Shown here one piece after another: positions 42,702 to 46,401 of a stretch of 64,000 nt of DNA. Below the pieces are notes generated by a model that saw nothing but the letters and a program-made list of their open reading frames with translations, did no database searches and was not told the origin of the DNA. Origin of the DNA: an uncultured cyanobacterium. Its GTDB lineage: Bacteria; Cyanobacteriota; Cyanobacteriia; Cyanobacteriales; Geitlerinemataceae. The stretch lies in contig CALCCD010000031.1 in the NCBI GenBank assembly GCA_937899645.1, forward strand, positions 1 to 64,000, read 5' to 3'. Made by a program: the position numbers and the translations under genes. Position 1 is the first letter of the stretch. Each line of letters opens with the position of its first letter.

Positions 42702-42884
42702 ATGCCTTACGTCAGCGAAGATGGTGGTCGCCTCAACAACTATGCCGTCGAGCCCAAAGTGTACATGGCAGAGCCGCCCACGAATGTCGAGAAACGCAAC
42801 TATCTCATCCTTGGTGTTGGCGGCGCTGTCGTAGTTGCAGCCGTTGTTGCGATCGCCTTCTTCGCGTCGAGCGCTGCAGCGTAA
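42702..42884 (+). CDS. psb34: Psb34 (ssl1498 family) photosystem II assembly protein
   Basis: Single-span thylakoid protein of 60 residues. The N-terminal part GGRLNNYAVEPKVYMAEPP is the hallmark of the ssl1498/Psb34 family, which resembles the high-light-inducible proteins and binds CP47 during late photosystem II assembly. KRNYLILG leads into one membrane helix (GVGGAVVVAAVVAIAFFA). The upstream region 42630-42700 is notably AT-rich, as expected for a strong promoter/leader. It is a lone gene, as usual for this family. Confidence 0.95.
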   Translation: MPYVSEDGGRLNNYAVEPKVYMAEPPTNVEKRNYLILGVGGAVVVAAVVAIAFFASSAAA

Positions 42885-43253
42885 CTGATGCGACTCGCCC
42901 GGACTGTCCTCAGGCGCTCGTTCAATTGCGGTAGTCCCTCTATCTGATAGCGCTATCGTATCGATCTGGCTCGCTGAATTGGTAAGGGCAGATACAGCCC
43001 GCCATGTTGCGCAGTCGCGCGGTTCTGCTAGAGTTGCAGCCAGCGTGCGGATTAGGGGACAGATTTAAGAGCGAATCGCAGAATTTAGAAGCCTCCTAGT
43101 CAATAGGGGGCTTTTTAGCGTGAAAAGCTGTTATCTACTGGTTCGAGCAACCCCATCGCGCTGACATGCCGAGAATCGGAGCCCGACTTTCAATCGGCCG
43201 ATCGCGTGCCCTGCGACCGCATCCATCGCCGCCTTCCCGTGGAGTTTCGCCCC
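42885..43253. other. Spacer after psb34
   Basis: Apart from the terminator at 43090-43116 I see no gene. About 200 bases separate psb34 from that terminator, long enough for an extended 3' UTR or a small RNA, but no known cyanobacterial sRNA motif was recognised. Confidence 0.35.
43090..43116 (+). terminator. Terminator downstream of psb34
   Basis: AGCCTCCTA (43090-43098) pairs with TAGGGGGCT (43104-43112) with one G-T pair and a 5-base loop, followed by TTTTT. Confidence 0.75.
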
Positions 43254-43904
43254 ATGTTCGATCTCGAAGCGGCGCTCGAACGCGCCATTCCCGAGCTGAA
43301 CCTTCTGACCTTGGCCACACCAGACATCACGCCGGGCGCGCTGCTCGAGTCGCGCCGCATCGATCGCTGCGTCGGGCGGATCGAGCCGTTTTTGGTGCCG
43401 CCTTTCGATCGCTCGACCTTTGAGACCGAGCGCCACCCTGCCGCGATCAACCTGCGCAGCCTCGAGGCCGAACGGTCGGGCAGTGGGGCACTGGGCCTAC
43501 TGCAAATGTTCGGCCTCGACCTGGCCGGAATCAACGCCAGCACCTCGAAGGCTCTCTCGATTCACCTCCAGCTCGAGAAGGTGACGGTGCAGCAATTCAA
43601 GCCCGAGCTGAGCAAGTTTCGCCTCGAGGCGGCGCTGCGAGCCCTCAAAGAGCGCGACTCGCGATCGTTCCGCCAGCTCAAGCGCCACTTCCTGGTGATG
43701 GCGACCTACTATGCCAGCAACTTTCGCCTGACGTTCCGCCGCGAGCTGCTCGATGCGATCGACCTGGACTCGAAGCTTAAGACCTCGGCGCGGACGACGA
43801 TCGAGCGCCGCGAGAACACCGTCTGGGTCGCGCGCAACAACACCCTGCCGTTTGGCGTGTTCGGCTACGAGATCACGCGCGGACGCAGAATCTTAGAGAA
43901 CTAG
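43254..43904 (+). CDS. Hypothetical protein with a possible gasdermin-like pattern
   Basis: Protein of 216 residues started at ATG 43254, ten bases after GGAG; an in-frame GTG at 43206 would add 16 residues including Cys3. No family is certain. The order of motifs reminds me of bacterial gasdermins: a short N-terminal helix then NLLTLATPDITPGALL, a first strand pair ending CVGRIEPFL, SGSGALGLLQMFGLDLAG, KALSIHLQLEKVTVQQFKPEL, later FLVMATYYASNFRLTF, and near the end LPFGVFGYEIT. Known bacterial gasdermins are somewhat longer, with a cleavable inhibitory tail and often a neighbouring protease; this one ends right after the last strand and has no protease neighbour. The resemblance is from memory and could be wrong. 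It converges on a histidine kinase gene 34 bases away. Confidence 0.7.
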   Translation: MFDLEAALERAIPELNLLTLATPDITPGALLESRRIDRCVGRIEPFLVPPFDRSTFETERHPAAINLRSLEAERSGSGALGLLQMFGLDLAGINASTSKALSIHLQLEKVTVQQFKPELSKFRLEAALRALKERDSRSFRQLKRHFLVMATYYASNFRLTFRRELLDAIDLDSKLKTSARTTIERRENTVWVARNNTLPFGVFGYEITRGRRILEN

Positions 43905-43938: not shown

Positions 43939-45954
43939 CTACGAAGCGAGATCGCCATCCTCGGTCACGTTTAGCTCCGCTGCCAGCTTCAGCGTTTCGG
44001 AGTCGAGGTTGCTGCTGCTGATGTCTTCGAGATCGAGATCGGTATCGAGTCCGAGAGCGAGATCGGCATCGAGCGCTGCCTGCGCCTGGGTTTCGAGTTC
44101 CGATGCAATCTCCGACACCGCGTCCGGCACCGAAATTCGACCGTTGCGATCGAACGGCAGGTCGGTATCCTCGCCGCTTTCCTTCGCGACCAGAATATCC
44201 GCCACGCTCTGCGCTGCCGAGACGATCACTGGCTCGTGGAACAGCGGCGCAGTGAACGTCACCGTCGAGCCCAGCCCTTCGCCCATACTGAAGAAGTTCA
44301 CCTTGCCGCCCATCATTTCAATAAGCTTCTGGGAAATCATCAGGCCCAGCCCGGTGCCGCCGTAGGTGCGCGTCCGCGAGCCGTCCACCTGGCTGAAGGA
44401 CTCGAACAGGCGGTCTTGTTTGTCGAGGGCGATGCCGATACCCGTATCGGAAACGAGGACTTTGAGCGTGGCGGGTAGATCTTTGCCATCGACCGTCACC
44501 GGACGCTTGAGGATTTCGCAGGAGACGGTGATGCCGCCCTCGTGGGTGAACTTAATCGCGTTGCCCACCAGGTTGAGCAGCACTTGCAAAAGGCGCTGGT
44601 AGTTGCCGTAGAGGATGATTTCGTCGTCCGTGCGCGGCATCGTGATCTCGAGTGAGAGCCCCTTAGAGTGGATTTGCGATTGGGTGAAGTCGCGCACGTG
44701 CTCGAACAACTCCGAAAGCTTGACCAGCTCGAAGTCCAGTTCCATTTTGCCGGACTCGATTTTGGCGACGTCGAGGATGTCGTTGATGATATTGAGCAGG
44801 TGAACGGCGGAGCGGTAGGCTTCTTCGATAAATTCCGTTTGCTCTTCGGGGTTATCGGCCATGCCGTCGAGGATGAGCTTGAGGAAGCCCATCATGCCGT
44901 TGAGCGGCGTGCGCAGCTCGTGGGAGGTGTTGGCTAGGAATTCGCTCTTGAGCTGCGAGAGTTCTTCGGCTTGGACGCGGGCGGCTTCTAGCTCGCGGTA
45001 AAGGGTGGCGTGGGCGGCGGCGGTTCCAACTTGGTTGGCGATCTCTTCGATAATTTCGATCTCGATCGGAAACCAGGGCGTCTGCGGCGGTGTCGGGGTG
45101 CTCTTGCGACGCGGCGTGCGCGAAATCTCGCGGTCGAGGACGATTACGCCGTTGGCGATGCCCTGGTGGGAGGTCGCGATCGCAAAGCGCGATCGCAGCT
45201 CGCCCCGTTTGAGCGTGACGATCGTCGGGGTCAGGCGCTCGATAGCGTGGGCGAAGTCGGGCCAGTCAGCTAGGGGCAGCGCGTCGTCAACCAGCACCGG
45301 GTCGATGTCGCCCAAGGAGGCGATGCATTGGAGCTGCTCGGCATCGGGCGAGAAAGTGAAGATATGGCAGGCAGCCAGGTTAAACGCTTCGTTGAGCCCT
45401 TCGGCAGCCTGAGCCCAGACGGTCTCGAAGTCGAGGGTCTGGCGGATCTTGCGGGCGATATGGGTCAGAAAGCGCGGGTAGGAGACGCGCGAAAGCAGGT
45501 TGCCGTTGCTGCCCAGGTTGACTGCCGAGCCGCTAACCGCGTAGCCGCCGAGGGTACGGAGCTCGCGCTCGCCGTCGGCGTTGGCGCGCGGTAAAAGCCG
45601 TCCCATCGCTAGGATGCGATCGATCGTCGCTGTAGAGTCGGCGATCGGCGTCAGGGTTAGATCGAACGAAAGGACGTAATTCTGACAGGTGAAGGAAACA
45701 ACACTGCGCTGCGGGAAACCTTCGCGAAAGACAGTGCTCAGAAGCTGCTTGTATGCCTGAAGGTCGCACGGCCGAAACCACTCGGACACTGACTCGATCG
45801 GGGTCGGTGAAATGTCGTAGCGGTCTGCTTGCTTCCAATGGAACGCAGCGTACCTACCCTGGCAGGTCTGCACGAAGGCAAGATCCGTACCGAGTACGGA
45901 GAGGTCGTACGGGTAAGAGGAGTCGGGCACGTGAGATTCAGCCGAGGAATTCAT
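43939..45954 (-). CDS. Sensor histidine kinase with GAF domain
   Basis: Soluble two-component kinase of about 671 residues. An N-terminal PAS-like region (about 15-140, YAAFHWKQADRYDI) precedes a GAF domain (about 165-305, IARKIRQTLDFETVWAQAAEGL). The HisKA domain has the H-box FLANTSHELRTPLNG with His345, and the ATPase domain has the N-box LLNLVGNAIKFTHEGG, G1 SDTGIGI and G2 GGTGLGLMISQKLIEMMGG, so it should be active. An acidic C-terminal tail of about 90 residues replaces any receiver domain. No response regulator is next to it. Start at ATG 45954; an upstream GTG at 46035 is possible. Confidence 0.93.
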   Translation of the reverse strand: MNSSAESHVPDSSYPYDLSVLGTDLAFVQTCQGRYAAFHWKQADRYDISPTPIESVSEWFRPCDLQAYKQLLSTVFREGFPQRSVVSFTCQNYVLSFDLTLTPIADSTATIDRILAMGRLLPRANADGERELRTLGGYAVSGSAVNLGSNGNLLSRVSYPRFLTHIARKIRQTLDFETVWAQAAEGLNEAFNLAACHIFTFSPDAEQLQCIASLGDIDPVLVDDALPLADWPDFAHAIERLTPTIVTLKRGELRSRFAIATSHQGIANGVIVLDREISRTPRRKSTPTPPQTPWFPIEIEIIEEIANQVGTAAAHATLYRELEAARVQAEELSQLKSEFLANTSHELRTPLNGMMGFLKLILDGMADNPEEQTEFIEEAYRSAVHLLNIINDILDVAKIESGKMELDFELVKLSELFEHVRDFTQSQIHSKGLSLEITMPRTDDEIILYGNYQRLLQVLLNLVGNAIKFTHEGGITVSCEILKRPVTVDGKDLPATLKVLVSDTGIGIALDKQDRLFESFSQVDGSRTRTYGGTGLGLMISQKLIEMMGGKVNFFSMGEGLGSTVTFTAPLFHEPVIVSAAQSVADILVAKESGEDTDLPFDRNGRISVPDAVSEIASELETQAQAALDADLALGLDTDLDLEDISSSNLDSETLKLAAELNVTEDGDLAS

Positions 45955-46161
45955 CGAAACAGGTAAAAACGGCTGCGATAACGAAGGCTCGCTGGGATCT
46001 GGCTGCAGGGTTGGAGCTTTGGGCCTGATGGCCACTTGCCAAAGTCTGCGCGATCGGCGGATTTGGGGCTGCGGATTTGGGGCTCGGGCTCAGAGTGCAG
46101 GTTTTAGCCATAAGCTCCGGATACGGCTTCAGGATAACCGAACGCTTCCGGATCTCTGGGG

Positions 46162-46401
46162 CTAATCGTTCCACTCACCGCGCGGTGGCACGGGCGGGTT
46201 GCGCGGCAAGCGGCGGCTGAGTTCGTCATCGCGATTGGCTTCGCCCCGCAGCCACTGACGCAGCGCGGTTTCGACCAGCTTGCTGGGGTTGCTGGTCAGG
46301 TGGCTCATACGTTCGACCAGTTCGGCATCGACCTGTACGGACAGCTCGACTTTCTTGCGATTCGAGTCGGTGGCGTTTTGGGGCGTAATCGGTTCCGTCA
46401 T
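46162..46401 (-). CDS. Small ribbon-helix-helix type protein
   Basis: Protein of 79 residues. The segment KKVELSVQVDAELVERMSHL followed by NPSKLVETALRQWL has the strand-helix-helix spacing of CopG/Arc-type DNA-binding proteins or CcdA-like antitoxins. The C-terminus is basic then proline-rich (RRLPRNPPVPPRGEW), a pattern that could bind a partner toxin, but no toxin gene adjoins it. Its start is ATG 46401. It precedes the kinase gene on the same strand by about 200 bases. Confidence 0.65.
   Translation of the reverse strand: MTEPITPQNATDSNRKKVELSVQVDAELVERMSHLTSNPSKLVETALRQWLRGEANRDDELSRRLPRNPPVPPRGEWND

Follow-up and report, generated by a model that had tools for sequence, protein, structure and literature searches.

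Can a gasdermin pore-forming domain exist in bacteria without the tail and the protease that control the known examples? Known bacterial gasdermins are described as inhibited by a short tail until a protease releases them (PMC9612521, PMC12547243). In the canonical proteins the core is followed by a tail that wraps the domain, a neighbouring caspase-like protease cuts about 20 residues from the end, and the N-terminal cysteine is palmitoylated in most, though not all, of them (PMC9612521, PMC12547243, PMC10989679). The question is raised by a small gene in the window, i.e., the whole stretch of 64,000 nucleotides of cyanobacterial DNA that was analyzed.

The Gene and Its Immediate Setting

The following features of the locus are used below:

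43254-43904, + strand: gene of the predicted tail-less gasdermin-fold protein (ATG 43254, TAG 43904, 216 aa, stop included)
43299-43781, + strand: segment aligned by the bacterial gasdermin (bGSDM) profile, residues 16-176
43848-43901, + strand: codons 199-216, covering the final predicted strand of the core (199-206, DSSP of the model) and the short 3' end
43241-43244, + strand: possible ribosome-binding site GGAG, 9 nt before the ATG, read from the sequence
43093-43117, + strand: stem-loop with a weak resemblance to a terminator, separating the tail-less gene from the small gene before it

The open reading frame proposed in the initial annotation is intact, and the existence of orthologues and purifying selection (see below) mean that it is more than a chance frame. 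Its start coincides with that of the closest orthologue in the family alignment. The six segments on which the gasdermin reading had been based were all found in the product in the stated order, namely NLLTLATPDITPGALL (residues 16-31), CVGRIEPFL (39-47), SGSGALGLLQMFGLDLAG (75-92), KALSIHLQLEKVTVQQF (99-115), FLVMATYYASNFRLTF (146-161) and LPFGVFGYEIT (198-208).

Upstream lies a small membrane-protein gene (42702-42884, + strand), downstream the convergent gene of a histidine kinase (43939-46035). The stem-loop between the small gene and the tail-less gene is weak, as the terminator consensus scan found one instance versus 1.4 expected in shuffled sequences; it suggests that the tail-less gene is transcribed alone. 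Farther out, the window contains a ClC/CBS/Usp channel gene, hrcA, a CcdA-like gene and smc. A domain search revealed no protease domain among the window neighbours and, as had been noted, no gene bordering the tail-less gene encodes a protease. RNA families were not found near the gene; a distance of 17 kb separates it from the only tRNA. The surroundings do not resemble a defence island.

Two of the neighbours deserve a short description. The product of the small upstream gene has 60 aa and a single membrane span (MPYVSEDGGRLNNYAVEPKVY...) and gave no Pfam match; it presumably resembles the photosystem II assembly factor Psb34. The CcdA-like antitoxin gene (46162-46401, - strand) had a Pfam E-value of 4.6e-4, just under the cut-off, and no obvious toxin partner adjoins it.

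Sequence Profiles and Predicted Structures

The PADLOC bGSDM profile matched the window protein with an E-value of 5.5e-9, and residues 16-176 were aligned with positions 16-179 of 257. The alignment is collinear over 160 residues, almost one to one, which agrees with the segment order and spacing that had been claimed for the protein. Two orthologues were also matched by this profile (6.2e-11 and 5.8e-6); the most distant relative (37% identity) was not, and neither were reversed and shuffled copies. With the NCBIfam profile prok_gasdermin (NF051890) the E-value was 6.4e-5 and the score 22.8 bits, far under the 100-bit equivalog cut-off.

Other sequence searches were negative, and they would fit the view that the protein is no gasdermin at all and that an unrelated fold shows a chance resemblance. 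A Pfam search of the window protein gave no match, and no gasdermin was retrieved from the PDB chains by sequence, either with the single protein or with the family profile. A comparison of profiles, in which three proteins represented the canonical side and which was too thin, gave a weak result (probability 7%), and an HMM of three canonical gasdermins did not separate the family from shuffles; the low NCBIfam score belongs here as well. Against this view stand the PADLOC E-values with their clean scrambled controls and two separate structure models, the top ranks of which are filled by gasdermins. A chance resemblance is therefore very improbable.

The first AlphaFold model was that of the window protein, and its alignment consisted of the protein's own four-member family, without any known gasdermin. 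It reached a pTM of 0.71 and a pLDDT of 71.5, with poor confidence at residues 22-45. With Foldseek (E-value 3.4e-5) the top five matches were all bacterial gasdermins (Runella, Bradyrhizobium), and the probability was 1.00 for the first four. With VIA, ranks 1-10 were all gasdermins, and the Z-scores to Vitiosangium 7n51, Runella 7n52 and Bradyrhizobium 7n50 were 8.2, 7.6 and 7.6, respectively, with rmsd values of 4.0-4.3 over 172-183 residues. The 37% relative was modelled as a target of its own, the alignment holding the same four sequences (pTM 0.64, pLDDT 62.1, poor confidence at residues 1-50). In this case the Z-scores to the same bacterial gasdermin structures were 9.8, 9.4 and 8.4, and ranks 1-19 were all gasdermins, followed by a drop to Z 4.0. 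Thus, in the structure comparison that the initial annotation had proposed, both models retrieved bacterial gasdermins as their best PDB matches.

The models have the predicted gasdermin fold, i.e., a twisted central antiparallel sheet with helices. Identity to canonical bacterial gasdermins in the structure alignments is only 11-14%. Residues 1-216 of the window model span 7n51 5-244, and residues 1-217 of the relative span 7n51 2-232. According to structure and sequence alignments, the core is complete, including both hairpin regions, and has near-canonical length. The gasdermin reading was thus supported, and the outcome that had been named in advance as speaking against it, i.e., no profile match together with a non-gasdermin fold, did not occur. 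The window protein is very probably related to gasdermins. In our judgement the kinship is deep but secure, because the PADLOC matches and the two models agree, while the other sequence searches were negative.

Relatives, Selection and Distribution

The two remaining genomes of the genus contain orthologues (identities of 71-72% and 57%), and the distant relative (37%) is encoded in genome G463, from another family of the same order. In total, members were found in four of the 291 genomes searched in the order, i.e., in all three of the genus and in one distant cyanobacterium, in whose family one of nine genomes carries the gene. An even sample of 386 cyanobacteria yielded the window gene itself only, and no relatives were found in plasmids, phages and viral contigs. 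The distribution is patchy and rare. One copy was found in each member genome searched, and a second gasdermin-like gene was not found in the window's genome. Five borderline matches (L008-L010, L017-L018; E 0.002-0.01) were treated as chance, because they were interrupted by stop codons or were fragments and were not regained with the family profile.

The dN/dS ratio between the window gene and its nearest orthologue is about 0.12 (0.205/1.70), the changes being mostly at codon position 3, and that between the two other genus members is about 0.21. The gene is under purifying selection. These values bear on the view that it derives from a canonical bacterial gasdermin by loss of the 3' end and is now decaying. 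The early end of one member (genome G519), directly after the last strand, and the existence of a truncated canonical gasdermin in another cyanobacterium (genome G185) would agree with decay. However, the frames are intact in four genomes, the ratios are in the range of about 0.12-0.21, and the end point is common to members with 37% identity. The dN/dS values and the intact frames led us to dismiss a pseudogene or a gene in decay; the probability of this view is minimal.

Absence of Tail, Cysteine and Protease

The four members have about 206-217 aa and end 0-9 residues past the last core strand, and the inhibitory tail, which comprises about 20 residues in bacterial gasdermins, is therefore absent. 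The ends map to about Vitiosangium residue 229-232 of 266 (8sl0 and 9a84, for the relative also 7n51). In the comparison with 7n51 the window model extends to residue 244; however, the pLDDT of its final eight residues is below 50. The Vitiosangium oligomer entry 8sl0 contains a 237-residue chain, and the natural tail-less protein stops even earlier. It had been stated that the window protein stops just after its last strand; with the last predicted strand at residues 199-206 this was confirmed, and the absence of the tail proved to be common to the relatives.

The N-terminal cysteine is missing from the whole family. The window protein has Cys39 only, which is not conserved, and two of the four members are devoid of any cysteine. 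The comparison of the neighbourhoods revealed no protease neighbour that is conserved across the relatives.

A canonical cyanobacterial gasdermin from genome G609 served as positive control. It has 276 aa, a tail, an N-terminal cysteine (position 4) and a protease nearby. In its region (L020:7338-15524), genes for a CHAT-TPR protein, a phage lysozyme, a Peptidase_C39 and a caspase (Peptidase_C14) are found near the gasdermin gene, an arrangement like a holin-endolysin-protease cassette. None of these genes accompanies the tail-less gene in the window.

The window protein was filed as a member of the gasdermin pore-domain superfamily and not as a canonical autoinhibited bacterial gasdermin, because it lacks the tail, the N-terminal cysteine and an adjacent protease and stays below the NCBIfam cut-off.

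Neighbourhoods of the Relatives

The survey of homologue neighbourhoods for proteases, which had been suggested as a test of a system, showed that the neighbours differ and that a conserved protease partner is missing. In two species of the genus (genomes G512 and G519; loci L014:385-2014 and L012:373-2288) the tail-less gene directly precedes the housekeeping gene dnaE on the same strand. In G519 the readable upstream side comprises about 345 bases, after which the contig ends. In the window's genome dnaE is on another contig than the tail-less gene, and therefore either the tail-less gene has been relocated or the DNA around it has. The neighbours of the distant relative in G463 are a cell-wall hydrolase gene and a piece of a transposase. 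The former encodes a Hydrolase_2 cell-wall hydrolase and lies 233 bases upstream of the relative on the same strand (L011:8171-9463). That gasdermins can be accompanied by endolysin-like genes has been pointed out earlier (PMC9612521).

A CHAT-TPR gene is situated two genes upstream of the tail-less gene in G512. The N-terminus of its product is signal-peptide-like, which suggests that the protein may be exported, and the window's genome encodes a 70% match on another contig. It was considered as a partner of the tail-less gene but not retained, as the linkage of the two is not maintained in the family.

These genes are relevant to the possibility that the protein is controlled by a protease encoded elsewhere, e.g., a CHAT-domain protein, and that an inhibitory part within the domain is cut internally. 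A Peptidase_C14 match on another contig of the window's genome, the many CHAT-TPR-like matches in that genome and the CHAT-TPR gene in G512 would be in line with such control. But there is no tail to cut, the best match of the G512 protein is encoded on a contig other than that of the tail-less gene, and its N-terminus points to export. Furthermore, CHAT proteins are so numerous in the window's genome that proximity is expected by chance. Control by an unlinked protease is thus improbable.

Comparison with Known Gasdermins

The canonical bacterial gasdermins of Vitiosangium (7n51/8sl0/9a84), Runella (7n52) and Bradyrhizobium (7n50) share the pore-domain fold and the profile match with the window protein. 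The canonical proteins, including the cyanobacterial ones of G609 and of Gloeothece verrucosa PCC 7822, also have the same one-domain size class and segment order. In contrast to them, the window protein falls short of the canonical 3' end by about 30-50 residues, so that the tail is missing, and its family lacks the N-terminal cysteine and the adjacent protease.

Similar in architecture are two eukaryotic examples, which form pores without cleavage (PMC12547243, PMC11760362). TrichoGSDM of Trichoplax consists of the pore-forming domain only and is restrained as a disulfide-linked dimer (PMC12547243). The Trichoplax adhaerens protein (8jyv/8jyw) likewise lacks an inhibitory C-terminal domain, and the fold match had Z 5.0-6.8. 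It has intermolecular disulfides, whereas in the tail-less family no cysteine is conserved and two members are free of cysteines altogether. RCD-1 of Neurospora is also a pore-domain-only gasdermin and needs two different alleles (PMC11760362). In this case (RCD-1-1/RCD-1-2 of Neurospora crassa, 8jyx/8jyy/8jyz) the fold match was weak (Z 3.2-4.9), and in contrast to the two alleles the window's genome shows one gasdermin-like gene only. In architecture, we read the window protein as the bacterial equivalent of TrichoGSDM and RCD-1. A description of tail-less bacterial gasdermins was not found in the open literature searched.

Two further cyanobacterial loci were encountered. In G185 a gasdermin of the canonical type is cut short at 151 aa (L013:7931-8386), and the frame of a pentapeptide-repeat protein (L013:8349-9377) overlaps its 3' end; either the gasdermin has decayed, or the locus is an effector gene that has undergone rearrangement. 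On plasmid Cy782201 of Gloeothece verrucosa PCC 7822 the "hypothetical protein" WP_013334731.1 (L022:7998-8954) is clearly recognisable as a bacterial gasdermin (E-value of 6.6e-64 with PADLOC). Its gene is followed by another hypothetical gene, and type III-B CRISPR genes are near.

Proposed Function and Restraint

The window protein is best explained as a stand-alone gasdermin pore-forming domain, i.e., a putative lytic pore protein that is restrained by its expression or by an unlinked partner; we give this reading a probability of about 0.5. When its amount is sufficient, or when it meets its trigger, the protein would bind to the cytoplasmic or the thylakoid membrane. Its two beta-hairpins would then rearrange, and the subunits would assemble into a large beta-barrel. 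The cell would thereby be permeabilised, and the most plausible purpose would be suicide. As no tail exists, none would have to be cleaved off, in contrast to known bacterial gasdermins. Pore formation independent of proteolysis has even or slightly lower odds.

How such a protein would be kept harmless is the critical point. Truncation of the tail of canonical bacterial gasdermins arrests growth in E. coli (PMC10989679); a natural tail-less version should therefore be toxic unless something restrains it that did not turn up in the analysis, and this counts against the best explanation. The moderate confidence of the two models, the low NCBIfam score and the strand amphipathicity, which shows no consistent excess over shuffles, speak against it as well. 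The absence of a palmitoylated N-terminal cysteine should lower the basal membrane affinity. Harmlessness could be kept by tight, low or conditional expression; alternatively, the missing palmitate could keep the affinity for membranes low, or an unlinked partner could hold the protein in check. The restraint is probably expression-level or partner-based. The sequences exclude regulation through a conserved disulfide, because they have no conserved cysteines.

The main rival is that the protein has the gasdermin fold but does not make pores, having been repurposed, e.g., for membrane binding or signalling, so that autoinhibition would be unneeded. Three safety or membrane features, i.e., tail, cysteine and protease, have been lost together. 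In addition, a conserved partner gene is missing, and in G512 and G519 the gene precedes dnaE in the same direction. The count of strand amphipathicity revealed no consistent excess over shuffles, which agrees with repurposing as well. Nevertheless, the core is complete with both hairpin regions and near-canonical length, and the patchy distribution, together with the change of neighbours, fits conflict genes better than housekeeping genes. Repurposing is unlikely, if a rival to be taken seriously.

Taken together, the preferred reading of a restrained stand-alone pore domain would imply a bacterial lineage that has lytic pores without tail, palmitate or protease and with an undiscovered off-switch, a proposition that we hold tentatively, at somewhat less than even odds. 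A conserved natural version without tail and protease lets one ask what else restrains a gasdermin pore domain. It bears on the question whether tail-based autoinhibition is ancestral or a later addition, and it raises the question of protease-free suicide pores in cyanobacteria. Surveys that use the NCBIfam cut-off or protease neighbours will miss such members. If the family indeed represents a cleavage-independent bacterial gasdermin, pore-domain-only gasdermins would not be peculiar to eukaryotes.
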